DNA from: Luteolibacter sp.
GTDB lineage: Bacteria; Verrucomicrobiota; Verrucomicrobiia; Verrucomicrobiales; Akkermansiaceae
NCBI GenBank assembly: GCA_030696085.1
Contig: JAUYNL010000057.1
Coordinates: forward strand, 1 to 32,425
Length of the DNA: 32,425 nucleotides
Direction of reading: 5' to 3'
Shown here: positions 6,041 to 17,469 of the stretch, in pieces
How positions within the stretch are numbered: position 1 is the first letter of the stretch
Layout: every line of letters starts with the position of its first letter
The notes under the pieces: model-generated
Databases searched by the model: none
Told to the model about the DNA's origin: nothing
What the model saw: the letters and a program-made list of their open reading frames with translations, nothing else
Made by a program: the position numbers and the translations under genes

Positions 6041-6643
6041 TCACGCATCCATCTGGCGAAGGGCATGAAAGACCTGGATCGCCGCGTAGGCGTCGTTGGC
6101 CGCGTAGAGCAACTGCCGTTCGCTGAGTTGTTGTGCCGCCCAATTGGAAGTGGTGATGGACTTCGACTTGTGGAGTCTGCGCTGGAACAGCATGGCCACG
6201 GCGGAGGTGGCACCGATCGTGTTGCGGTAGCCGAGCTGCTTGAACGATCGGCCAAGATCGATGATCGAGGACGGACGGACGCCGAAACGCTGTGCAATCT
6301 GGTGCAGGTCGCCTTTCAGGTCGAATCCGATTTTGGTGAGTTGTGAGGAGACCAGCAGCTCGATGATCGCCTCCTGGCTGGCGGTGATGTGTGAGTGGAA
6401 AATGAAGGCTTTTTCGACGGTGGCGAACTGAAAGACATGCGGACCTTCCGACTTCTGCCCTTTGCGGAAAGTCGGTTTTGATTCGGTGTCAAAACCCACC
6501 ACTTCCGCCCGCATCAGTTCCGCGCGGGCGATCCCGGCCTGTCGCTCGTCCGAAACCACGAACACGGACTCCAGCCCCAATCCCTCGAATGGCTCCATGG
6601 CAGCGATCTCGGTCTTGTGGGGCGGGGATTTCAAGTTGTTCAT
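6041..6643 (-). CDS. 3'-5' exonuclease, RNase D-like (DEDDy)
   Basis: The 200-residue protein is a stand-alone DEDDy exonuclease domain. Exo I is GFDTES (Asp52, Glu54). Exo II is KIGFDLKGDLHQIAQRFG (Asp108 or Asp112). Exo III is LLYAANDAYAA (Tyr180, Asp184). All four acidic ligands and the tyrosine are present, so it should be an active two-metal nuclease on RNA or DNA 3' ends. At this length it lacks the HRDC domains of full RNase D. It resembles the short 3'-5' exonuclease domain proteins of WRN-exo type. The start at 6643 has no clear Shine-Dalgarno site; MEPFEGLGL at residue 16 is an alternative. It diverges from the UPF0173 gene across a 159-base region. Confidence 0.85.
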   Translation of the reverse strand: MNNLKSPPHKTEIAAMEPFEGLGLESVFVVSDERQAGIARAELMRAEVVGFDTESKPTFRKGQKSEGPHVFQFATVEKAFIFHSHITASQEAIIELLVSSQLTKIGFDLKGDLHQIAQRFGVRPSSIIDLGRSFKQLGYRNTIGATSAVAMLFQRRLHKSKSITTSNWAAQQLSERQLLYAANDAYAAIQVFHALRQMDA

Positions 6644-8189: not shown

Positions 8190-9080
8190 ATGGAACCTTG
8201 GCAAGCATTTCTACTGGGCATCATCGAAGGCATCACCGAATACCTGCCCGTCAGCTCCACCGGGCACCTGCTCGTCGCCCAGCATCTGATGGGCATCGGC
8301 ACCCAGACGCCGCAGGCCAAGGCCGCGGCGGACACTTTCGCCATCTGCATCCAGGGCGGCGCGATCCTCGCCGTGATCGGACTTTATTACAAACGCGTCA
8401 CCCAGATGGTGCTCGGCGTCTGCGGCCAGGACCGGGAGGGGCTAAAGCTCGCCATGGCCATCCTCATCGGCTTTCTTCCCGCAGCCGTCATTGGCCTGCT
8501 GCTCAACGATTGGATCGAGGCGAAACTTTTCGGCATGCGGCCGATCATCTTCGCCTGGGTGCTGGGCGGTGTATTGATTCTTGCCGCAGCCCGCTGGTCG
8601 CGGCGCAAGCCTGCGAATGGCGGCGGCATGGAGCTGCTGGATATGACCTGGAAAATGGCGCTGCTCATCGGTCTGCTGCAATGCGTGGCGATGTGGCCGG
8701 GCACCAGCCGCAGCCTGATGACCATCGTCGGCGGCTTGTTGGTGGGACTCTCGGTGCGCGCGGCGGTCGAGTATTCATTCTTGTTAGGCGTGCTCACCCT
8801 CACTGCGGCCACCGCGAAGAAGGCGCTGTGGAAAGTGGACGCGCCCGGGGTGGATGCCCAGTATGACGTCTGGCTCGGCGGGGCGAGGCTGATGTGGGAG
8901 AGTTACGGCCCCCTACCCTTGCTGGTGGGCGTGGTGGCGGCCACCATTTCCGCGGCGCTGGCGGTGAAATGGCTGGTCTCCTACCTGCAAAGCCACGGGC
9001 TATCGCTCTTCGGCTGGTATCGGATCGCCATTGGCACGGTGATCGGCGGCCTGGTGGCGGCGGGGGTTTTCACCGCGTGA
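8190..9080 (+). CDS. uppP: Undecaprenyl-diphosphatase UppP (BacA)
   Basis: The 296-residue polytopic membrane protein carries both signatures of the BacA/UppP family: EGITEYLPVSSTGHLL at residues 13-28 and MWPGTSRSLMTIVGGL at about 168-183. The catalytic Glu and Ser lie in the first motif and Arg174 in the second. It removes a phosphate from undecaprenyl diphosphate, recycling the lipid carrier used for peptidoglycan, O-antigen and other glycans. Loss or overexpression changes bacitracin sensitivity in other bacteria. I placed the start at 8190 (MEPWQAFLLGIIEG) because it matches the family N-terminus; the frame is open further upstream without likeness. Eight or so membrane helices are visible. 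The gene converges on the unknown membrane gene at 9091. Confidence 0.95.
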   Translation: MEPWQAFLLGIIEGITEYLPVSSTGHLLVAQHLMGIGTQTPQAKAAADTFAICIQGGAILAVIGLYYKRVTQMVLGVCGQDREGLKLAMAILIGFLPAAVIGLLLNDWIEAKLFGMRPIIFAWVLGGVLILAAARWSRRKPANGGGMELLDMTWKMALLIGLLQCVAMWPGTSRSLMTIVGGLLVGLSVRAAVEYSFLLGVLTLTAATAKKALWKVDAPGVDAQYDVWLGGARLMWESYGPLPLLVGVVAATISAALAVKWLVSYLQSHGLSLFGWYRIAIGTVIGGLVAAGVFTA

Positions 9081-9090
9081 ATCGCTCGTG

Positions 9091-9909
9091 CTAACAGAAG
9101 CGGACCATGTCCTTGATGAACTGCCCCCATAGGAAGATCAGGCCGCGTTTGGAGTATTGGAAATGGCCGTCGCCGGTGAGGCGGATGATGCCGGTGTTGA
9201 GGTTGTGATCGAGTTGGCGGCGCATCTCGGATTCGATCGAGTTCTCGATTTGCTCGGGATCGGGCATGCGCAGGCGGTCTGTGGAAACCTTGGAGCGACT
9301 GAGGTAGGACTGGTGGTCGCGCAGAATATGGTGGAAGCAATTTCGGCTGCATGGCACATGGTTCCAGCTCACATCCGGCGGGCAGCGCAGCGTGGGGGCG
9401 AAGGGGAAATTGGTGGTGCGCCAGATCCGGCCATCGCAATCGTGGGAGGTGATGGAAATGAAAGCAAAGGCGACATCGCTCTGCTCGCAGAGGCAGACGG
9501 CGGCCACGGCGCGTTCCTCTGGATGCCAGAACAGGCGGAAGAACTGGTGCATGCCGTCCCATTCCCATCCACAGTCCGAGACATGTTCAAAGCCGGCTTC
9601 CTCCATTGCGGCGGCGGCGGCCGTGGCATTCGGGAAAAACGAGGGGTTTGGAATCCGGCGGTGCTCCAGCCGGTTTTCGATCGGCAGGCGCATCCGGCGG
9701 ATGCGGGTGAGCAGTTCGATCCACGGCAGGAACAACCACAGCAGCACGCCCATCAAACCAGCCAGCAGGCTGTCGGCCAGGAAGTAGAACAGGCAGAAGC
9801 TGGCACCCAGAAGAATGATGGCGCCGAGTTTTCGCAAACCCACGGAGTGGGCGGTGCGCAGTGCCGCGGCGAGGACCAGAAGGCCGATTACGATCAGGGT
9901 TTCACGCAT
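9091..9909 (-). CDS. Unknown membrane-anchored protein
   Basis: The 272-residue protein begins MRETLIVIGLLVLAAALRTA and has two to three membrane segments within the first 70 residues (about 3-20, 25-42 and 46-62). A soluble region of about 200 residues follows. That region has patterned Trp, His and Cys positions, including FEHVSDCGWEWDGMHQFFRL, ITSHDCDGRIWRTTNFPFAP and CSRNCFHHILRDHQSYLSR, and ends FLWGQFIKDMVRFC. I do not recognise the family. The soluble part looks like a compact alpha/beta domain with no obvious catalytic motif. The frame is open to 10098, but that extension runs across the terminator region. The start at 9909 is preferred. Confidence 0.65.
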   Translation of the reverse strand: MRETLIVIGLLVLAAALRTAHSVGLRKLGAIILLGASFCLFYFLADSLLAGLMGVLLWLFLPWIELLTRIRRMRLPIENRLEHRRIPNPSFFPNATAAAAAMEEAGFEHVSDCGWEWDGMHQFFRLFWHPEERAVAAVCLCEQSDVAFAFISITSHDCDGRIWRTTNFPFAPTLRCPPDVSWNHVPCSRNCFHHILRDHQSYLSRSKVSTDRLRMPDPEQIENSIESEMRRQLDHNLNTGIIRLTGDGHFQYSKRGLIFLWGQFIKDMVRFC

Positions 9910-10032
9910 GGAGATGAGGCGAAGGCGGAGATGCGATTTTCCGCACTGGCACTGGGAACGAGTCCCATGCTTCATGGTCCTGCGCAAGCGCTTGTTTTCC
10001 CTGTTAGCCGCCTGCGGAGCATCCGGAACCCT

Positions 10033-10072
10033 GATAAAACAAGGGCCGTGCCGGGCGAATGCCGACACGGCC
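10033..10072 (-). terminator. Intrinsic (rho-independent) terminator after the phosphoribosyltransferase gene
   Basis: Positions 10044-10054 (GGCCGTGCCGG) and 10062-10072 (CCGACACGGCC) pair over 11 base pairs with one C-A mismatch around a 7-base loop. Read on the minus strand, the stem is followed by CTTGTTTTATC, a T-rich tract. It lies about 140 bases past the stop of the gene at 10210-10905 and would separate it from the gene at 9091-9909. Confidence 0.7.
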
Positions 10073-10120
10073 GTCGATTTCCGCCAGAGTTTCCGCATGC
10101 GCGGCGCCTCCGGCTGGTCC

Positions 10121-10175
10121 GGGGGGGATCAAATGGGGGGGGGCTGTGGTTTCGGGGGGAATCTGGGGGGGGGGG
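10121..10175. repeat. Cluster of four long G runs (possible G-quadruplex)
   Basis: On the plus strand there are runs of 7 G (10121-10127), 9 G (10135-10143), 6 G (10154-10159) and 11 G (10165-10175), separated by 5-10 bases. This spacing suits an intramolecular G-quadruplex. The transcript of the neighbouring minus-strand gene would carry the C-rich complement, so the G runs are on its template strand. Confidence 0.75.
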
Positions 10176-10209
10176 AGGGATTCAGCAGGCGATATTTGTT
10201 TGCGTGGTT

Positions 10210-10905
10210 TTATCGGTTCAGCAATTGCCGCACTTCGGCCGCCGTGGGTGGGCGATCATCGAACCATTTCGCCGCCCGCACCGGAGCGGAATACTCGGCC
10301 AAAGTCACCACCTCGTCCGCTTCAAGGCGCAGATCGCAAGCGGCACGATGGCAGGTGGTCGGCATGGCTATGACGACATGTTCGGCATGCTGCCTGCGCA
10401 ACAAGCGGATGGCGTTGCGCAAGTCCGCGCAGGGTGAACTACCGTCATCGACGAGAATCACCGTGCGATCCGCGATTTCAAGCGACGGGCGCTGGTTGCG
10501 GTAGAGCTTTTCCCGCCGGGCCAGTTGCAATGATTTCTTGAGCACCGCGCGGTGGATTTCCTCATCTTCGAGGTGCAGGCGGTCGATCATCGCGCCGTTG
10601 AGCATGCGCACCCCTCCACTGGTGATCGCGCCCAAGGGCGTGCGGCCGCAAGAGGGAGTCATGATCCGGTTGATGAGTAGAACATCGAATGGCAGATCCA
10701 GAATGCAGGCGATCTCCGCGGCGACGCACATGCCCCCCTTGGGCAGGGCAAGGACAAGCACATCAGAAACGCCGGCGAATCGCTTGAGCCGCCCGGCGAG
10801 CACCCGGCCAGCCTCCTGGCGGCTGCCGAATCGTCTGGGAATGATTGCTTGTGGGGGGAGTGAACTCGGAGTTTGGATCGATTGCGGATTCATGGCTTTG
10901 GGCAT
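10210..10905 (-). CDS. Phosphoribosyltransferase-fold protein with altered PRPP loop
   Basis: The 231-residue protein follows the plan of the stand-alone phosphoribosyltransferase-domain proteins related to ComF/HprT folds. It has RFGSRQEAGRVLAGRL, then VLALPKGGMCVAAEIACILD (normally LPRGGVPVA), a middle segment PLGAITSGGVRMLN, and the PRPP-binding strand RTVILVDDGSSPCADLRNAI (about 150-170). In active members that loop reads VDDGIATGAT; here the T-G-T is replaced by S-P-C, so PRPP binding is doubtful. The two acidic residues of VDDG are kept. The start may be 10905 or MNPQSIQTPS at 10893. The real product is unknown. A terminator lies downstream, past a C-rich trailer. Confidence 0.8.
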   Translation of the reverse strand: MPKAMNPQSIQTPSSLPPQAIIPRRFGSRQEAGRVLAGRLKRFAGVSDVLVLALPKGGMCVAAEIACILDLPFDVLLINRIMTPSCGRTPLGAITSGGVRMLNGAMIDRLHLEDEEIHRAVLKKSLQLARREKLYRNQRPSLEIADRTVILVDDGSSPCADLRNAIRLLRRQHAEHVVIAMPTTCHRAACDLRLEADEVVTLAEYSAPVRAAKWFDDRPPTAAEVRQLLNR

Positions 10906-11061
10906 CGTTGTAGCCTATTTTTGAAGCACCAGGCGATCCGAGGGGAGCTAGAGCATAAACACGCGAAAGGTTTTGGCTATGGCGTGAAGCGCCTGATCGG
11001 CGTACGGGATTAGCGCGATGCGGCGTACGCAAAACCAGCAGGCATCGCATTTCCCGGGCTC

Positions 11062-11736
11062 TCAGGATTGGATCAATCCGACTTCGACCCAGCGGATGGC
11101 GTGGCGTGTCAGCTCGTTGCTATCGGCGAGGCCGAGTTTCTCGCGGATGTGGGCGCGGTGGGCGTCGAGGGTGCGAGGGCTGATGCCGAGTTGGCTGGCG
11201 ATCTCATGGTTGCTCTTGGCGTGTCCGATGAGTTCGAAAACTTCCATTTCGCGATCAGTGAGGCATTCCAGGGGATATCCCGGTTTGGTGGGATTTTTTC
11301 CTGAAGAAAGAGTGCGGAGGAGATGGTCGGTCACCGTTTGGCTGGCGAAGATGCCTCCAGCCAGCACCACGCGGATGGCCTCCAGCAGGCGGTCCGGCGG
11401 CGTGTCCTTCATGACATAGCCGCGGCCGCCGGCACGCAGCACGCGTTCGGCATAGACCATCTCATCGTGCATTGAGAGCACGATGATGGGGATTTCCGGG
11501 TGGGTGGCGCCGAGATCCTTGATGAGTTCCAGACCGTTGCGCCCCGGCAAGGTGAGATCGGTGATGATGAGGTCCGGTAAATCGGAATCCATATGGGCGA
11601 GCGCCTCCTGCACGCTGCCCGCCATGCCGCAAATGCTCAGGCCGGTCTCTGCGGTGATCAGGCGTCCGAGTCCCTCGCGCAACAGCGGGTGATCATCTAC
11701 CAGCAGGATTTTGGATATCCGGTTGTTATCACTCAT
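11062..11736 (-). CDS. NarL/FixJ-type response regulator (receiver + LuxR HTH)
   Basis: The 224-residue protein has an N-terminal receiver domain with the acidic pocket DDHPLLREGL (14-15), phosphorylatable Asp60 in LIITDLTLPGRNG, Ser/Thr position VLSMHD and Lys110 in GYVMKDTPPDRL. A LuxR-type helix-turn-helix follows at about 155-215, with LTDREMEVFELIGHAKSNHE and IASQLGISPRTLDAHRAHIR. It should be a DNA-binding transcription factor switched on by phosphorylation. Its gene is the last of a four-gene operon, and its ATG overlaps the stop of the PAC2 gene by 4 bases. The PAS kinase two genes upstream is the obvious partner. Its targets cannot be told from the sequence. Confidence 0.93.
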   Translation of the reverse strand: MSDNNRISKILLVDDHPLLREGLGRLITAETGLSICGMAGSVQEALAHMDSDLPDLIITDLTLPGRNGLELIKDLGATHPEIPIIVLSMHDEMVYAERVLRAGGRGYVMKDTPPDRLLEAIRVVLAGGIFASQTVTDHLLRTLSSGKNPTKPGYPLECLTDREMEVFELIGHAKSNHEIASQLGISPRTLDAHRAHIREKLGLADSNELTRHAIRWVEVGLIQS

Positions 11737-12689
11737 GGCGGTGTGGCATTCGGAGATGAACCCGGGTCCTTGAACAGATCGAGAAACCGGTCTTCATACT
11801 CATGGAACAATCCCAGCCTGTCGAGTTCCTGTTTGAGCTCGAAGGCGCGCGATCGGTCTTCCCGGGCCTGGCTGAACAAAAGTTCGATGTGCTGGCGGTC
11901 GGCATCACCGGCGCGAGGGCCGCCCTGTGCGACTGCGGGTTCCGGCAGGTGGCCGGGCTGCGAATGAGCCTCCTCCACGGCATGCTCCATGCGGACCAGG
12001 AAATCCTCCAGTGTCTGCTCCACCGTCTCGGCATGTTCCATCAACTCGGCGAAATCGAGCTCGATGCCGGTCATCGCGCTGAAGAATTCGAGCACCGCGA
12101 GCGCGGCCTTTGGAAATGGAATCTGAGAGAAAACATGGGGGATCTCCCCGAGCAGGCAGCCGCCGGGAAGCCCGCTTGCTGCCGCCATGCCCAGAAGCAC
12201 TCCGTTGAGCCCGCTGATGTTGCCGTTTTCCAGGATCCGCACATCGAGTTGCTTGAACTCCGCGAGGGTGGCGCGGTCGATGGCGGCGCCGAACACATGC
12301 GACTCCTGTTTCGGCCGCATCGCCGTGGCCATGGCGGCGAAGGTGAAGACCCGCCGCACGCCCAGGGTCTTTGCCTGCTTGATGAGTTTGCGGCAGAAGG
12401 CACCACCCCTGGCCGGCGGCTGCGCCTCGCCGATGAAGACGATGAGATCGCGCCGACGCTCCGGATCGTTCCAAAGGAAGAGCCGGCTGCGCGGCAGGCG
12501 CTGCGTGAGAATCAGGCCGTCCTTCACCTCGATTTGTTCGATATCAAAAAACTCGGTGGCGGGAAATTCCAGCAGCAGGTGCATGCCGAGTTTGGCCATC
12601 AGATAATATCCTGCGGTGATCGCCACACCGCCCATGCCGGGCCATACCGCCACCAACCACGGATCATGAAGTTTTTCTTCCGCGGTCAT
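11733..12689 (-). CDS. PAC2 family protein (proteasome assembly chaperone 2-like)
   Basis: The 318-residue protein begins with the PAC2 signature PWLVAVWPGMGGVAITAGYY near residue 10. It continues with RDLIVFIGEAQPPARGG, VRRVFTFAAMATAMRPK and NISGLNGVLLGMAAASGLPG, then CLLGEIPHVF. These blocks match the bacterial/archaeal PAC2 (DUF75) family in order. The last third (about 230-318) is helical, acidic and Gln/Glu/Arg-rich, probably a coiled coil. PAC2 proteins are known as proteasome assembly chaperones in eukaryotes; their role in most bacteria is unestablished. Here the gene lies between a histidine kinase (30-base gap) and its response regulator (4-base overlap), so it is probably part of that signalling unit. 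Confidence 0.85.
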   Translation of the reverse strand: MTAEEKLHDPWLVAVWPGMGGVAITAGYYLMAKLGMHLLLEFPATEFFDIEQIEVKDGLILTQRLPRSRLFLWNDPERRRDLIVFIGEAQPPARGGAFCRKLIKQAKTLGVRRVFTFAAMATAMRPKQESHVFGAAIDRATLAEFKQLDVRILENGNISGLNGVLLGMAAASGLPGGCLLGEIPHVFSQIPFPKAALAVLEFFSAMTGIELDFAELMEHAETVEQTLEDFLVRMEHAVEEAHSQPGHLPEPAVAQGGPRAGDADRQHIELLFSQAREDRSRAFELKQELDRLGLFHEYEDRFLDLFKDPGSSPNATPP

Positions 12690-12719
12690 GATAACAATCT
12701 CGCGCGATGGGCGCGGCAG

Positions 12720-13853
12720 TCAAGTGTGGGAAAGCGTGCAGGTGACCATGGTTCCGCCATTTTCCGGAGTGGAGAACGCCAGACTGCCGGAGATGATGTC
12801 CGCGCGGTAATTCATGATGCGCAGGCCCATGCCCTTGCGGCGCGGGCTTGGCTTGGGCAGGCCCGCCCCATTGTCGGTCACCACCAGCGTGGTGCGTTCG
12901 GCTTGTGATGCCAGATCGATGAGGATGTCGGTGGCCTTACCATGATTCACTGCGTTGGTGACGGCTTCCTGGGCGATTCGATACAGGTGGGTGGCCACGC
13001 TGTCCGTGAGCACCGGTTCGCAGGCGGGGCCGGTGAAGCGGCAGCTCACTTCGAAAATCCCGGAAGTCCTTTCCGCCAGATCGGCGAGCGCGGCCATCAG
13101 CCCGCCGGATTTCATGGCCACCGGATGTAGCCCGCGGGCCAGCGAGCGGGTGAGGGCCAGCGCGTCATTGAGCAGGCTGGTGATCTTTCCGGCCTGATCG
13201 GCGGCGGGGGAGGAACGGTTCAAGAGGGCGCTGGCAAGCAGGTGGCTCATGTAGGAAATGCCGACGAGGCGCTGGCCGAGGTCGTCATGGAGATCGCGCC
13301 CGATGCGTTGTTGCTCGCGTTCGCTGATCTCGAGGATTTCCTTTTCGAGCCGGCGGCGGGCGGCCATTTCCTTGTGGAGTTTTTCATTGGCCCGGCGCAG
13401 CGCGTTGGTGCGTTCCAGGACGCGGGCCTCCAATTCGCTGTTGAGCTTGCGGATGACTTCCTCGTTGCGAACATGCTCGGTTACATCCCGGATGAAACTG
13501 ATGATGAGCAGCCCGCTGCCGGTGTGCAACGGGCTGATGCGGATATCTGCGGGAAACTCAGTGCCGTCCCTGCGCCGGGCGCGCAGCGTCCTGTCGGAGC
13601 CCAGCGTGTGCTTGACGGGTGCCGCCACATATTCCGCGCGATGTGAGGAATGGGATTTCGCGAGACTTGTGGGGATCAGTATTTCCACCGCCTGCCCCAA
13701 TAACTCGTCGCGGGCATAGCCGAACATCCGCTCGGTTTGTGAATTGATTCGCTCGATGGACCCCTCCGTGTTGACGATCACGATGGCATCGGGCGCGGCT
13801 TCGAGCAGTCCGTGAAACCAAGCCGCGTTGTTGAGACCATTCATCGGACTCAT
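12720..13853 (-). CDS. PAS-domain histidine kinase (NarX/DegS type, HisKA_3)
   Basis: The 377-residue protein has no membrane segment. A PAS domain covers about 10-127 (LEAAPDAIVIVNTEGSIERI, MFGYARDELLGQ, then ISPLHTGSGLLIISFIRDVT). A coiled-coil linker covers 128-180. The dimerisation domain carries the phosphoacceptor His189 in RIGRDLHDDLGQRLVG. The ATPase domain has an N box (AQEAVTNAVNHG), a G1 box (VVTDNGAGLP) and a G2 box (KGMGLRIMNYR). The C-terminus ends TCTLSHT. It is a cytoplasmic sensor kinase of the family that pairs with NarL-type regulators, as encoded at 11062-11736. Its start overlaps the stop of the upstream eRF1-like gene by 4 bases. The PAS ligand is unknown. Confidence 0.93.
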   Translation of the reverse strand: MSPMNGLNNAAWFHGLLEAAPDAIVIVNTEGSIERINSQTERMFGYARDELLGQAVEILIPTSLAKSHSSHRAEYVAAPVKHTLGSDRTLRARRRDGTEFPADIRISPLHTGSGLLIISFIRDVTEHVRNEEVIRKLNSELEARVLERTNALRRANEKLHKEMAARRRLEKEILEISEREQQRIGRDLHDDLGQRLVGISYMSHLLASALLNRSSPAADQAGKITSLLNDALALTRSLARGLHPVAMKSGGLMAALADLAERTSGIFEVSCRFTGPACEPVLTDSVATHLYRIAQEAVTNAVNHGKATDILIDLASQAERTTLVVTDNGAGLPKPSPRRKGMGLRIMNYRADIISGSLAFSTPENGGTMVTCTLSHT

Positions 13854-14302
13854 AGAAAGCGCTTCTCCATTTCCACCAGCGGGGATCGGGTCAGGTCCGC
13901 CCCCACGCTGGATGAGAGGGAATTGCGGGAGTCCTGGGAGAGCAGTCCCTTCAGGCGGGATAAAATCGGCTTGGGTGCGGCGAGGATCCAGGGGGGATGT
14001 CCTTCCGCCGCCAGCGCATACTCGACGCGCGCGGCGATTTGTCTCAGGGCGTTGCGTTCGATTTCGTCCTGAAGATGGTGCTCCTCACCGTGGGACATGC
14101 CGGTCTCAAAACCCACCGCTCCGCCGCGTGCGAAGCGGCCTGCCTGGTCGGTCACGGTTTCCTGCATGGATTTCACATGCACCTTGCCGGATTCCCCGGC
14201 TTCCTCGATGAGATGTTCCTGTTCGATCGGGTCCTCGCCGGCTTCGCGATATTTCAGAACCCTCAGGTTTCCTAGATTGGCTGCGATGATGATCTTTTTC
14301 AT
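13850..14302 (-). CDS. Host-attachment family protein (bacterial eRF1-like)
   Basis: The 150-residue protein begins MKKIIIAANLGNLRVLKYRE and has KVHVKSMQETVTDQAGRF in the middle. The later helix-strand unit is NALRQIAARVEYALAAEGHP then PWILAAPKPILSRLKGLLSQ. It ends in DLTRSPLVEMEKRFL. This order (strand with an ALFE-like start, a D-x-x-G-R-F turn, a late A-P-P/K strand and a DLT-x-x-P-x-x-E tail) is the Host_attach/baeRF family. Those proteins resemble eRF1 domain 2; one was named for attachment of Agrobacterium to host cells, but their general role is unknown. The start at 14302 matches the family; the frame is open to 14398. It is the first gene of the kinase/PAC2/regulator operon, overlapping the kinase start by 4 bases. 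Confidence 0.78.
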   Translation of the reverse strand: MKKIIIAANLGNLRVLKYREAGEDPIEQEHLIEEAGESGKVHVKSMQETVTDQAGRFARGGAVGFETGMSHGEEHHLQDEIERNALRQIAARVEYALAAEGHPPWILAAPKPILSRLKGLLSQDSRNSLSSSVGADLTRSPLVEMEKRFL

Positions 14303-14471
14303 GATGGGGCGGATGGTTGATAGGATGAGGTCGGCGACCTGAAAGGTGAAACCGACACTTGGACCTGGCTGGATTTCACTCTGGGGAAATCCGCGCAATC
14401 AGCGAAATCTCCGGGTGCATCACGCGATGCGCATAGGGGAATCGCGAACGCGGCGGCTTCCGGGCTGGCGT

Positions 14472-14801
14472 TCAGACGTTTTTCGTCCGGTGGATGAAGT
14501 CCGCCCAGTGATAGTTCCAGACATGCAGCCACGGATGATGGCCATGTTCATCCGAGGCCATATACGCCGAGCACGCGACCCCGGCGATCCACGCCACCGG
14601 AACCAGCAACAGCGAAGCCCCCAGAGTGCCGAAGACGAGGAGTCCGGCGATGAAGGCCACCAGCACGTTGCCAAGAGTTAGAATTCCGAATCCGGAGAGA
14701 TAATGGTGTTTGTAGAGATGCCCCAGCCCGGGAACCACGCTCAGGCCGACGGCCACTTTGTTACGATCCACGCGTTTCCATGCTTCGATAATTTCTTTCA
14801 T
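14472..14801 (-). CDS. Small membrane protein, TM2/DUF5683-like
   Basis: The 109-residue product starts MKEIIEAWKRVDRNKVAVGL and has VVPGLGHLYKHHYLSGFGIL, followed by two long membrane segments (about 38-58 and 62-84). It ends with a His/Trp-rich tail (SDEHGHHPWLHVWNYHWADF). The PGLGHLY-x-x-x-x-x-x-G-x-x-I pattern resembles TM2-type and DUF5683-type membrane proteins, where a conserved G-x-G-x-x-Y turn leads into the first helix. Function is unknown. I used the ATG at 14801; the frame is open 14 codons further. It lies 169 bases upstream of the host-attachment gene on the same strand, probably in its own transcript. Confidence 0.65.
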   Translation of the reverse strand: MKEIIEAWKRVDRNKVAVGLSVVPGLGHLYKHHYLSGFGILTLGNVLVAFIAGLLVFGTLGASLLLVPVAWIAGVACSAYMASDEHGHHPWLHVWNYHWADFIHRTKNV

Positions 14802-15099
14802 GGCGGTAATAGAGGTTTTGAGACTGTTGCAAGTTCTCACCATGGCCTCGATGGCGCAAGGTGAAAGTCACGAGACATCCGGAATCCGTGGCGGCGAGGA
14901 TCGGACTTTGAAGAGGGAGGGGCGGAGATGAGCTGGCGCGCGACGTCCCCCGGATGGATTGGAGCGGGAATGGTGAGCCGGCGCGACGCCGATCAAATTG
15001 AATTCGAGCTTCCCGCCGCAATCACATCCATCTTAACCTGGGCTAGGAAGACGAGTAGGATGCCCATGACGGCACGCCATGTTCCAATGACTAAAACGC
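14802..15099. other. Gene-free divergent upstream region
   Basis: These 298 bases lie between the divergent starts of the small membrane gene (14801) and the permease (15100). They should hold both promoters. I found no convincing -35/-10 pair, repeat, hairpin or small coding region. A short ATG frame at 15087 closes after six codons and overlaps the permease start. Confidence 0.5.
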
Positions 15100-17469
15100 G
15101 TGATTGATCCGCTCGACAGAAAGCTGCTGCGTGACCTGGGCCGGATGAAGGGCCAGGTGGTGGCGGTGAGCCTGGTCATGGCCTGCGGGCTGGCAATGAT
15201 GATCATGACGCGCAGCTTGATCCTGACGCTGGAATCAACCCGCAGCGCATACTATCAGCAGTATGCGTTTGGCGATGTGTTCGGATCGCTGAAACGCGCG
15301 CCCCTGGCGGCTGCGGAGCGTCTGGCCACGCTGCCGGGCGTGGCGGGTGTGGAAACCCGCGTGGTGGTGGATGTGACGTTGGATCTTCCCGGCCTGGCGG
15401 AACCGGCGACGGGGCGCATCGTTTCGCTGCCCGAGGACGGGGGCACCCAGAAGCTCAACCGGGTATTCCTGCGCAAGGGCCGCTTTCCCCGGCCGGATGA
15501 TCGGCGTGAGGTGCTGCTCGGCGAGGCCTTCGCGGAGGTCAACGGCCTGCAACCCGGAGATTCGCTGGTGGCGGTGATCAACGGCCGCCGCGAAACCCTG
15601 GTCATCTGCGGCATCGGGCTTTCTCCGGAGTTCGTGTTCGAGGCGCGCCCCGGGGAAACCCTGCCCGACCACGAGCGCTTCAGTGTGATGTGGATGAATT
15701 ACCGCGCGCTGGCCGTGGCCTATAACATGGACGGCGCGTTCAATGATCTGGTCATCGATCTCGCGCCGGGCGCATCCGCCGAGCCGGTGATCGAGGAGGC
15801 GGACCGGCAGCTCGTGACCTACGGCGGCGGCGGTGCCTACACCCGCAAGGATCACCCCAGCGCGCAGCGCCTCGATGACGAGATCCGCGTGCTGCACTCG
15901 CTGTCGGTGGCCTATCCGCTGGTGTTCCTGAGCGTGGCGGCCTTCATGGTCAATGCGGTGCTCTCGCGCATCGTGCGGCTTCAGCGCGAGCAGATCGCGC
16001 AATTAAAGGCGCTGGGTTATTCATCGCGCCAGGTGGGCATTCACTATCTCAAGTTCGTGCTGGTTATCGGCACGCTCGGCACGCTCATCGGCGGCATAGC
16101 CGGAAGATTGATGGGCGGCGGCCTGGTGGACCTCTACACGCAGTTTTTCCTCTTTCCCTCGCTGCGTTTCACTCTGGATTACAGCGCACTGGGGCTGGCA
16201 CTGCTGGTCAGCCTGGGAGCCTCGGTATCGGGCGTGCTCAGCGTAGTGCGGCAGGCGGTGAAACTGCCGCCGGCGGAGGCGATGCGGCCGGAACCCCCTG
16301 CGGATTTCAAGCCATCGTTCTTCGAGCGCATCGGCCTGACCTACCTTTTCAGCCCCGCCTTCCGCATGGCGCTGCGCAATATCGAGCGGCGGCCATGGCA
16401 GGCGGGATTCACCTGCTGCGGCCTCGCGCTGGCCACCGGACTGATGGTGCTGCCCGGCGCGATGAGCGACAGCATCGACCACCTGCTCACCTTCCAGTGG
16501 AACAGCGCGCAACGCCACGACGTGGCCGTGTTTCTAACCGAACCAAGCTCCGGAAAGGGTTTCCACGATCTCGAACACCTGCCCGGAGTGATCCGCGCGG
16601 AGCCGGTCCGCAGCGTGCCCGCACGGCTGAAATACGGCCACCGCCAGCGAAAACTCTCCATCACTGGCATCTCGAAAGGCGCGGATCTCAATCGCTTGCT
16701 CGATGCGAACGAGCATCCCATCGAAATGCCTTCCGAAGGACTCCTGATGTCCGAAAAACTCGCGGAAATCCTCGGCGCGCGCATCGGCGATGCGGTGCGC
16801 GTGGAGGTGCTGGAAGGCCGCCGCTCCACCATGGAGGTGCCCATCCGCGGACTGGTCACGGATTTCGCCGGGGTGTCCGCCTACATGGACATCACCGCCC
16901 TGCAGCGCATCCTCAAGGAGGGCGATACGGTCAACGGCGCCTATCTCGCCGTGGACCACAAGCACTGGGACCGCTTCATGCGCGAGGTGAAGGACACGCC
17001 GCGAGCCGCGTTTGTGATGGTGAAACGCGACCAACTCGCCGCTTTCCGCGAAACCACCGGCAATAGTATCGGCATCATCCGCAAGCTCTACTTCGTGCTC
17101 GCCACCATTGTCGCCTTCGGCGTCGTTTATAACAGCGCGCGCATCGCCCTCTCGGAGCGCAGCCGCGAGCTCGCCACCCTGCGCGTCGTCGGCTTCAGCC
17201 TGCGCGAAGTGCGCGGAGTGCTCGTCGGTGAGCTGGCCGTGCTGGTGCTGTTAGCCATTCCAGCGGGCCTGCTTTTCGGCCGCGGCCTGGCGCTGCTCAT
17301 CATGTCCTCCTTCAGCACCGAAACCGTGCGCCTGCCCATTCTGATCAACCACTCGACCTATGCGATCGCCGTGGTGGTGGTCCTCACCGCCGCCGTGTGC
17401 TCCTTCACGCTGGTCAGCCGCATGCTGGGGAAACTCGATCTCGTCGGCGTCCTGAAGGCGCGGGATTGA
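15100..17469 (+). CDS. ABC transporter permease, double FtsX/MacB-type domain
   Basis: The 789-residue protein starts at a GTG (MIDPLDRKLLRDLGRMKGQV) and has the layout of large bacterial FtsX-family permeases. It has one membrane helix at about 17-40, then a periplasmic region (MacB_PCD-like) to about 265. The first FtsX unit at about 268-390 contains LSRIVRLQREQIAQLKALGY and the turn RQVGIHYLKF. A second anchor follows at about 430-455 and a second periplasmic region to about 660. The second FtsX unit, about 665-785, contains ARIALSERSRELATLRVVGF and SLREVRGVLVGELAVLVLL. These permeases act in lipoprotein, lipid or drug export with an ATPase and often a HlyD-type adaptor. Such an adaptor is encoded at 18865, after an intervening gene on the other strand. 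No ATPase gene is in the window. Confidence 0.88.
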   Translation: MIDPLDRKLLRDLGRMKGQVVAVSLVMACGLAMMIMTRSLILTLESTRSAYYQQYAFGDVFGSLKRAPLAAAERLATLPGVAGVETRVVVDVTLDLPGLAEPATGRIVSLPEDGGTQKLNRVFLRKGRFPRPDDRREVLLGEAFAEVNGLQPGDSLVAVINGRRETLVICGIGLSPEFVFEARPGETLPDHERFSVMWMNYRALAVAYNMDGAFNDLVIDLAPGASAEPVIEEADRQLVTYGGGGAYTRKDHPSAQRLDDEIRVLHSLSVAYPLVFLSVAAFMVNAVLSRIVRLQREQIAQLKALGYSSRQVGIHYLKFVLVIGTLGTLIGGIAGRLMGGGLVDLYTQFFLFPSLRFTLDYSALGLALLVSLGASVSGVLSVVRQAVKLPPAEAMRPEPPADFKPSFFERIGLTYLFSPAFRMALRNIERRPWQAGFTCCGLALATGLMVLPGAMSDSIDHLLTFQWNSAQRHDVAVFLTEPSSGKGFHDLEHLPGVIRAEPVRSVPARLKYGHRQRKLSITGISKGADLNRLLDANEHPIEMPSEGLLMSEKLAEILGARIGDAVRVEVLEGRRSTMEVPIRGLVTDFAGVSAYMDITALQRILKEGDTVNGAYLAVDHKHWDRFMREVKDTPRAAFVMVKRDQLAAFRETTGNSIGIIRKLYFVLATIVAFGVVYNSARIALSERSRELATLRVVGFSLREVRGVLVGELAVLVLLAIPAGLLFGRGLALLIMSSFSTETVRLPILINHSTYAIAVVVVLTAAVCSFTLVSRMLGKLDLVGVLKARD

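Follow-up and report, generated by a model that had tools for sequence, protein, structure and literature searches.

Archaeal PbaA and PbaB, homologs of PAC1-PAC2, are described proteins of the PAC2 fold, and PbaB is reported to be a tetramer; its C-terminal arms bear the HbYX motif, by which it docks on the proteasome, and capture unfolded protein (PMC3605417). Balon, a ribosome hibernation factor of Psychrobacter, has homologs that lie in stress operons, and the homologs Rv2629/Msmeg1130 are induced by hypoxia (PMC10901736). Most families of single core-domain baeRF-1 proteins are thought to regulate translation without catalytic activity, and their neighborhoods are reported to include a ribosome hibernation factor (Burroughs and Aravind, PMC6514570); the terms 'PAC2' and 'histidine kinase' are absent from the main text of that paper. 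Here we analyze a stretch of 32,425 nucleotides from Luteolibacter sp. (Verrucomicrobiota, Akkermansiaceae), hereafter the window, in which a single-domain baeRF gene and a PAC2 gene lie in one run with the genes of a two-component system. The comparisons below indicate that what evolution has conserved is the baeRF-PAC2 pair rather than the set of four genes.

The genome to which the window belongs, as contig C74, is 3.77 Mb in size and 96 per cent complete (G000). On its minus strand, the run begins with a baeRF (Host_attach) protein of 150 amino acids (13850–14302; PF10116, E-value 2.9e-13, 51 bits against a cut-off of 26.7), followed by a sensor histidine kinase of 377 amino acids with PAS_9, HisKA_3, and HATPase_c domains in Pfam (12720–13853), a PAC2 protein of 318 amino acids (11733–12689; PF09754, E-value 1.4e-36, 126.7 bits against a cut-off of 25.8), and a NarL/FixJ-type response regulator of 224 amino acids with REC and GerE domains (11062–11736; Response_reg, 2.5e-27; GerE, 3.1e-15). 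The first-pass annotation had described four genes in one direction, with 4-base overlaps at 13850–13853 and 11733–11736 and a 30-base gap between the kinase and PAC2 genes (12690–12719), and all of this is confirmed. The baeRF start is taken as ATG 14302, a position at which 15 of 16 homologous stretches encode methionine; a mechanical list of open reading frames gives a longer alternative from TTG 14398. The closest named matches of the PAC2 protein are records labeled Akkermansia or Akkermansiaceae.

To establish how far this gene order extends, 195 related genomes were searched for PAC2 and baeRF, and the neighborhoods were fetched and read (L031 and L032 were dropped as repeats of L073 and L074; L033 corresponds to G035). 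PAC2 matches occur in 32 of the genomes: 27 hold orthologs (at least 53 per cent identity), and five hold divergent proteins (30–32 per cent; G016, G021, G032, G097, and G160), which are left out of the count of 27 and none of which has baeRF beside it. Directly upstream of PAC2 and on the same strand, baeRF is found in 19 of the 27 orthologs. The kinase gene stands between the two in this genome and in G069 (2/27), baeRF lies 1.9 kb downstream of PAC2 behind an Hsp20 gene in G105 (1/27), and the contig start cuts the baeRF side in G065 and G051 (2/27), where baeRF is on another contig. An Opitutia contig outside the 195-genome set (L036) has the same baeRF-PAC2 order. Thus, the claim that PAC2 is built into a two-component operon stands for the window, where the run is real, but its exact form is shared only with G069, and the survey of gene order that the first-pass annotation had proposed finds the widely conserved part to be baeRF with PAC2. 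Because the genes flanking the pair vary on both sides between loci, the pair does not appear to be held merely by conserved surroundings.

The two genes are also distributed together. Genomes G000–G073 (n = 74) were taken as one genus, with same-genus kinship recorded for all except G046, G048, G049, G052–G054, G057, G058, G060, G064, G066, G070, G072, and G073; in the Fisher tests, baeRF was counted at an E-value of 1e-25 or better and the regulator at an identity of at least 68 per cent. Within this genus, 23 genomes have both PAC2 and baeRF, 2 have PAC2 alone, 3 have baeRF alone, and 46 have neither (Fisher, 8e-14); the corresponding counts across all 195 genomes are 24, 3, 11, and 157 (Fisher, 3e-19). 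The genomes are related to one another, and these p-values therefore overstate independence. Pairwise distances of PAC2 and of baeRF in 19 genomes have a correlation of 0.86, or of 0.78 with a control gene held fixed, a value that none of 5000 permutations reached. These sequence comparisons show that the two genes are co-inherited in the genus and that their order is constant in different surroundings.

The model of the window's PAC2 protein (pLDDT 84.6) has PbaB as its best Foldseek match (3.3e-16), at about 25 per cent identity, followed by PbaA and Rv2125. PF00227, which covers 20S, HslV, and Anbu, was found in none of 19 PAC2-bearing genomes, G000 included, in a search of 74 genomes that covered 19 of the 32 PAC2-bearing ones (16 with the ortholog and 3 with a divergent protein) and that was positive in 10 of 14 control genomes. 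The window's genome, at 96 per cent completeness, could by itself miss a gene, but it is unlikely that a proteasome-fold protease was missed in all 19. The C-terminal HbYX motif was likewise sought, and tyrosine stands at the second-last place in 0 of 39 PAC2 rows, two of which are incomplete. Instead, the C-terminus is predicted to form a low-confidence linker and then a conserved tail of three short helices (about residues 262–309; 11763–11906, minus strand), identified by alignment and profile comparison, with the pattern LF..A..DRSRAYELKQELDRL..F.EYEDRFLDLF; the same tail is present on planctomycete and Dehalococcoidia PAC2. Compared with PbaA and PbaB, the window's protein has the same fold, yet its arm lacks HbYX and ends in the helical tail, its gene is paired with baeRF, and no proteasome-fold protease was found in the PAC2-bearing genomes searched. 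The docking end of PbaB is replaced in these PAC2 proteins.

The tail is shared with a second, unnamed protein family, and this is the least expected result of the analysis. When the PAC2 profile was run against Verrucomicrobiota, with up to five candidates scored per genome, 92 of 387 genomes matched; the whole profile was matched in three (G000, G108, and G499) and the C-terminal part alone in the other 89. All 27 of the tail-only matches that were fetched belong to one other family of about 230 residues. A profile-profile comparison of PAC2 with this family gives 98.3 per cent and an E-value of 1.4e-14, with the tail as the part that aligns clearly, and one pairwise tail match reaches 55 per cent over about 45 residues. 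Among the members tried, no Pfam or NCBIfam match exceeded its cut-off, and nothing in PDB was better than an E-value of 0.11. The family was found in 50 of 52 genomes searched, always ending there before the tail; of the 40 good genomes from this order, 39 carry the tail-less form and G014 does not, and the PAC2 tail was the only other match in those 52 genomes (G014 was matched by the PAC2 tail alone). In Chloroflexota, tail matches occur in 29 of 201 genomes, and of ten such loci read, eight hold the second family and two hold PAC2. Because two families have one docking-like end, the comparison suggests a common partner for them. An alternative in which the tail had been traded between PAC2 and the second family was rejected, since the tail-less form is found even in the 20 of these genomes that have no PAC2 match.

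Examples of the second family (about 175–235 amino acids) are found at L102:994-1665, L078:1066-1761, L042:3014-3721, and, in the window's own genome (G000:C28), L105:1231-1767; in other Verrucomicrobiota the family often ends in the PAC2-type tail. An unnamed protein of 200 amino acids is encoded directly before it in four Chloroflexota loci (L042:2387-2989, L226:7579-8175, L228:7339-7935, and L229:4908-5504), and in L042 this gene lies behind groES-groEL, judging by the look of the sequences.

The baeRF protein is assigned by PF10116; its score for baeRF_family12 (PF18856), 25.5 bits, is under the cut-off of 27.7. No GGQ motif, which marks active eRF1-type release factors, is conserved in 17 aligned baeRF sequences, and a PDB sequence search with the protein gave no match at an E-value of 5. 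A Foldseek search with its model (pLDDT 78.2, weak around residues 55–67) listed Balon, eRF1, and Pelota with a probability of 1.00 and a best E-value of 1.1e-3, and hence no match at 0.001 or better. VIA-align superposed the model on the middle domain of Msmeg1130 (Z 11.3, rmsd 2.8, 122 aligned residues) and on that of human eRF1 (Z 10.9, rmsd 3.2, 121 aligned residues). Since the Balon and eRF1 matches are tied, the protein is best regarded as an eRF1 middle domain and not as Balon in particular. It shares with Balon the middle-domain fold and the lack of GGQ, but Balon has three domains, whereas the window's protein is a single domain of 150 amino acids that matches only residues 133–254 of Msmeg1130, and its nearest gene is PAC2, not RaiA. 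In consisting of a single core domain, it is like the baeRF-1 and Host_attach families. A Burkholderia low-oxygen locus with Host_attach genes was dropped from the comparison, because two papers on it mean something else by 'attachment to host cells'.

Upstream of the pair, a promoter-like element separates the loci into two kinds. The sequence CTTGC[GA][GA] lies at −55 to −59 from the baeRF start codon in all 14 pairs without adjacent two-component genes, the Opitutia contig among them, and is followed after 16–18 bases by nATnnT (examples are L073:10206 and L036:7446). It is absent from all eight baeRF loci with two-component genes (seven with PAC2, plus G022) and from the single locus of G014. 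Because 13 of the 17 occurrences of the spaced pattern in 32 loci (900 kb, both strands), and 14 of the 22 in 96 loci, precede baeRF, the element appears nearly specific to the baeRF-PAC2 operon among the loci at hand. Across these loci, the promoter-like element is exchanged for the regulator between branches, and we read it as a promoter that belongs to the pair itself and would have been lost once the regulator assumed control. It resembles the heat-shock sigma-32 promoter (consensus CTTG...CCAT) and may be of that type; a reading of the stretches upstream of ClpB, Hsp20, and DnaJ-like genes in two other genomes revealed no CTTGC element. Terminator-like sites in 9000–15100 of the window number 4, against 5.2 expected.

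The kinase is far rarer than the pair. At an identity of at least 65 per cent, it occurs in 3 of the 195 genomes (G000, G069, and G022), and G019 has a partial match of 61 per cent. Six genomes in which the regulator adjoins PAC2 (G050, G071, G030, G007, G065, and G062, the last with a fragment of the regulator) have no such kinase at an E-value of 1e-25. An intact regulator directly follows PAC2 in seven loci (the window and L045–L050), a fragment follows it in L055, and in L060 the regulator is one gene further away; a regulator or its fragment stands beside 5 of the 19 direct baeRF-PAC2 pairs. The window, L045–L050, and L055 fall inside one supported ten-member clade of the PAC2 tree, which also holds L052 (G014), cut on the regulator side; this tree requires two changes and carries a long-branch warning. 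Orthologs of the regulator (at least 68 per cent identity) were counted in 17 genomes; PAC2 is present in 13 of these, and some of the regulator orthologs lie elsewhere in the genome. The run in G022 consists of a small gene, baeRF, the kinase (matched from residue 137, after the PAS domain), the regulator, and the phosphoribosyltransferase (PRTase) gene with the next gene, and related kinase-regulator neighbors occur in genomes of other families of the order that have no PAC2 match (for example, G184:C12, G173:C4, and G159:C113). Since the G022 run and these neighbors exist without PAC2, the two-component system and the baeRF-PAC2 pair each appear to have existed before they were joined in this clade.

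These distributions divide the proposal of the first-pass annotation that PAC2 and the eRF1-like protein may modulate or respond to the PAS kinase. The two proteins go with one another and, chiefly within a single clade, with the NarL-type regulator, but action on the kinase is not supported: that they modulate it is unlikely, given a kinase present in three genomes, one of which (G022) has no PAC2 match, and not found at an E-value of 1e-25 in six in which PAC2 and the regulator are neighbors. Of the two halves of the proposal, the one in which they respond to the kinase, as output genes, fares better. The closest PDB sequences of the kinase are the FixL PAS domain and the DesK kinase core, with a weak sequence match to DosT/DevS. 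Its PAS domain (about residues 13–132; 13458–13817, minus strand; Pfam and PDB sequence comparison) aligns without gaps to FixL at His68, the counterpart of which we take to be the heme ligand position of FixL. The nearest ortholog, in G069, is without that segment, and heme oxygen sensing by the kinase is therefore retained only as a lead.

In mycobacteria, the hypoxia and dormancy regulon of DosRS(T) includes a baeRF-type protein and a PRTase, as are found near the two-component genes of the window. Both systems pair a HisKA_3-type kinase with a NarL-type regulator, but the window's kinase has a different sensor domain, and we know of no PAC2 gene in the DosRS(T) regulon. The PRTase gene of the window lies downstream of the run (10210–10905, minus strand; PF00156, 6.4e-8); it adjoins the regulator in G022 too, is one gene further away in G050, and possibly belongs to the same regulon as the four genes. 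Upstream of baeRF, a small conserved protein of 123 amino acids (14472–14843, minus strand), without a family above cut-off in a Pfam scan, is encoded in the same place in G069, G014, and G022 and may have its own promoter. Elsewhere in the window, 6041–6643 encodes a 3'-5' exonuclease-like protein with 72 per cent identity over 189 residues to the product of the gene after PAC2, in the opposite direction, in L053 (Pfam DNA_pol_A_exo1), and such a neighbor is found in six further loci.

Outside the orthologs, PAC2 genes lie in other company. In Planctomycetota, the PAC2 profile matches 28 of 246 genomes. One planctomycete locus of about 10 kb (L194) encodes a PRTase, a CBS protein, a hydrolase, a full-length baeRF of family 7, PAC2, a NarL regulator, a PAS kinase, and Hsp20, and in two more loci a relative of this full-length baeRF and a NarL regulator lie within about 6 kb of PAC2; the baeRF proteins near which PAC2 is found therefore belong to two families. 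Stress markers are present near PAC2 in 9 of 34 planctomycete loci and in 4 of the 5 divergent verrucomicrobial ones, whereas none of 18 control loci has any; the control loci (9–14 kb) span less sequence than most PAC2 loci, which reach 19 kb. Some planctomycete loci share one genome (G885, G916, and G945), and L106, L107, and L115 are not in the control set, as no such gene was called there. Several genes for PAC2 with the tail occur per genome in some planctomycetes (L212 in G916:C24; L213 in G945:C31), and at one locus two such genes point opposite ways, one of them adjoining a gene for a universal stress protein. In Chloroflexota L220 and L221, PAC2 with the same tail is transcribed divergently from an apparent ABC transporter operon of the branched-chain amino-acid type.

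Several explanations could account for a PAC2 gene in such settings. Were PAC2 to assist proteasome assembly or activate proteasomes in the conventional way, as family membership and the PbaB/PbaA fold would have it, the missing PF00227 protein here and in the 18 other PAC2-bearing genomes searched and the absence of an HbYX-like end in every row would be hard to understand, and we give this explanation almost no credence. Foldseek also lists nucleoside phosphorylases and nucleosidases for PAC2 (E-values of about 3e-5 to 1e-4), and PRTase genes are near in the window, G050, G022, and several islands, which might make PAC2 an enzyme acting on nucleosides or nucleotides together with the neighboring PRTase; these matches, however, are far below that to PbaB and show only a common fold, and only 2 of 28 verrucomicrobial ortholog loci have a PRTase nearby, so that such an enzyme is very improbable.

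A signaling role has more to recommend it, although we still consider it improbable. If PAC2 and baeRF were accessory proteins that bind the kinase or regulator and tune phosphotransfer, one would expect arrangements such as that of the window, where PAC2 lies between kinase and regulator and overlaps the latter by 4 bases, or that of the planctomycete island, with kinase, regulator, and PAC2 in a row on one strand. Yet 14 of the 19 direct pairs have no adjacent regulator or kinase homolog in the fetched stretch (G014 is cut on that side), the PAC2-regulator genomes tested do without the kinase at 1e-25, and kinase and regulator occur as neighbors in genomes without a PAC2 match, G022 among them. 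A loose stress island, whose genes are kept together by shared transfer or regulation with no physical partnership of baeRF and PAC2, accords with the patchy presence of the genes in the genus and with PAC2 lacking window-type baeRF in other stress islands. We judge it unlikely but worth keeping in view: the baeRF-then-PAC2 order, on one strand and close together amid changing surroundings, and distances that track each other beyond the control gene speak for a partnership, although both would also fit co-transfer.

The explanation that we prefer, and to which we assign an about even chance, is that baeRF and PAC2 form a stress-time translation or proteostasis module in bacteria where no proteasome was found. 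In this module, baeRF would sit on ribosomes and, in the manner of Balon, silence them or hold them in hibernation, while PAC2 would form an oligomer like PbaA/PbaB, with flexible arms ending in the conserved helical tail; in place of HbYX, the tail would hold a different partner, for which baeRF-bound ribosomes, unfolded chains, or a partner of the second tail-bearing family are candidates. A role of PAC2 on the ribosome side, in particular, seems to us only about half as probable as the module itself. In relatives without two-component genes, the pair would be expressed from its own conserved promoter-like element, whereas in the window's clade a NarL-type regulator, joined here by a PAS kinase, would have entered the operon. 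Kinase and regulator would then be the control and baeRF and PAC2 the output. Because the element was not found in this clade and the regulator has joined the operon, kinase and regulator most likely switch on the pair together with the neighboring PRTase gene, much as DosRS does with hypoxia genes.

A number of observations weigh against the module or its proposed control. Three of the 27 PAC2 orthologs have no adjacent baeRF (G108 has one elsewhere; G037 and G059 have none at an E-value of 0.001), in G499, outside the 195-genome set, the 1.5 kb upstream of PAC2 contains no baeRF, and the baeRF-kinase-regulator-PRTase run of G022 has no PAC2 match. Window-type baeRF adjoins PAC2 in none of the 34 planctomycete loci, in none of the 5 divergent verrucomicrobial loci, and in neither of the 2 loci from Chloroflexota; given the planctomycete count, the pair is, as far as seen, verrucomicrobial. 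The baeRF protein is a single eRF1-like domain without the other Balon domains, and ribosome binding is therefore not a given. A classic stress marker is present at only 4 of 28 verrucomicrobial ortholog loci, and the markers were chosen after they had been seen at PAC2 loci, which biases the comparison toward those loci. The promoter-like pattern, too, was defined after the sequences had been seen, single sites were equaled by 0 to 64 of 100 shuffles, several of them being unremarkable on this score, and a sigma-70 scan of 9000–15100 found 0 promoter-like sites. In the region upstream of baeRF, the alignment of four close loci revealed no binding site for the regulator, and 14 loci scanned for palindromes had none in common. 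The promoter and two-component differences largely reflect one clade split and hence few independent events, and within the clade L065 (G051) has an open downstream side but no regulator.

As to novelty, the first-pass annotation knew of no such described system, and none was found in the part of the open-access literature searched: no paper was found in open PMC that joins PAC2 with baeRF or Host_attach (subscription papers lay outside the search), and none among the titles returned treats PAC2 with a two-component system. In a bolder version of the preferred module, which we consider doubtful, PAC2 in proteasome-less bacteria has been re-purposed, its complex with a lone eRF1-like domain parking or rescuing ribosomes under stress, with the helical tail replacing the docking motif and the same tail on the widespread second family marking a common third partner. 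The constant eRF1-like partner, the replaced docking element, and the exchange of promoter-like element for regulator make the role of PAC2 testable in these bacteria, and the pair points to a second route, besides RaiA neighborhoods, by which single-domain baeRF proteins may act.

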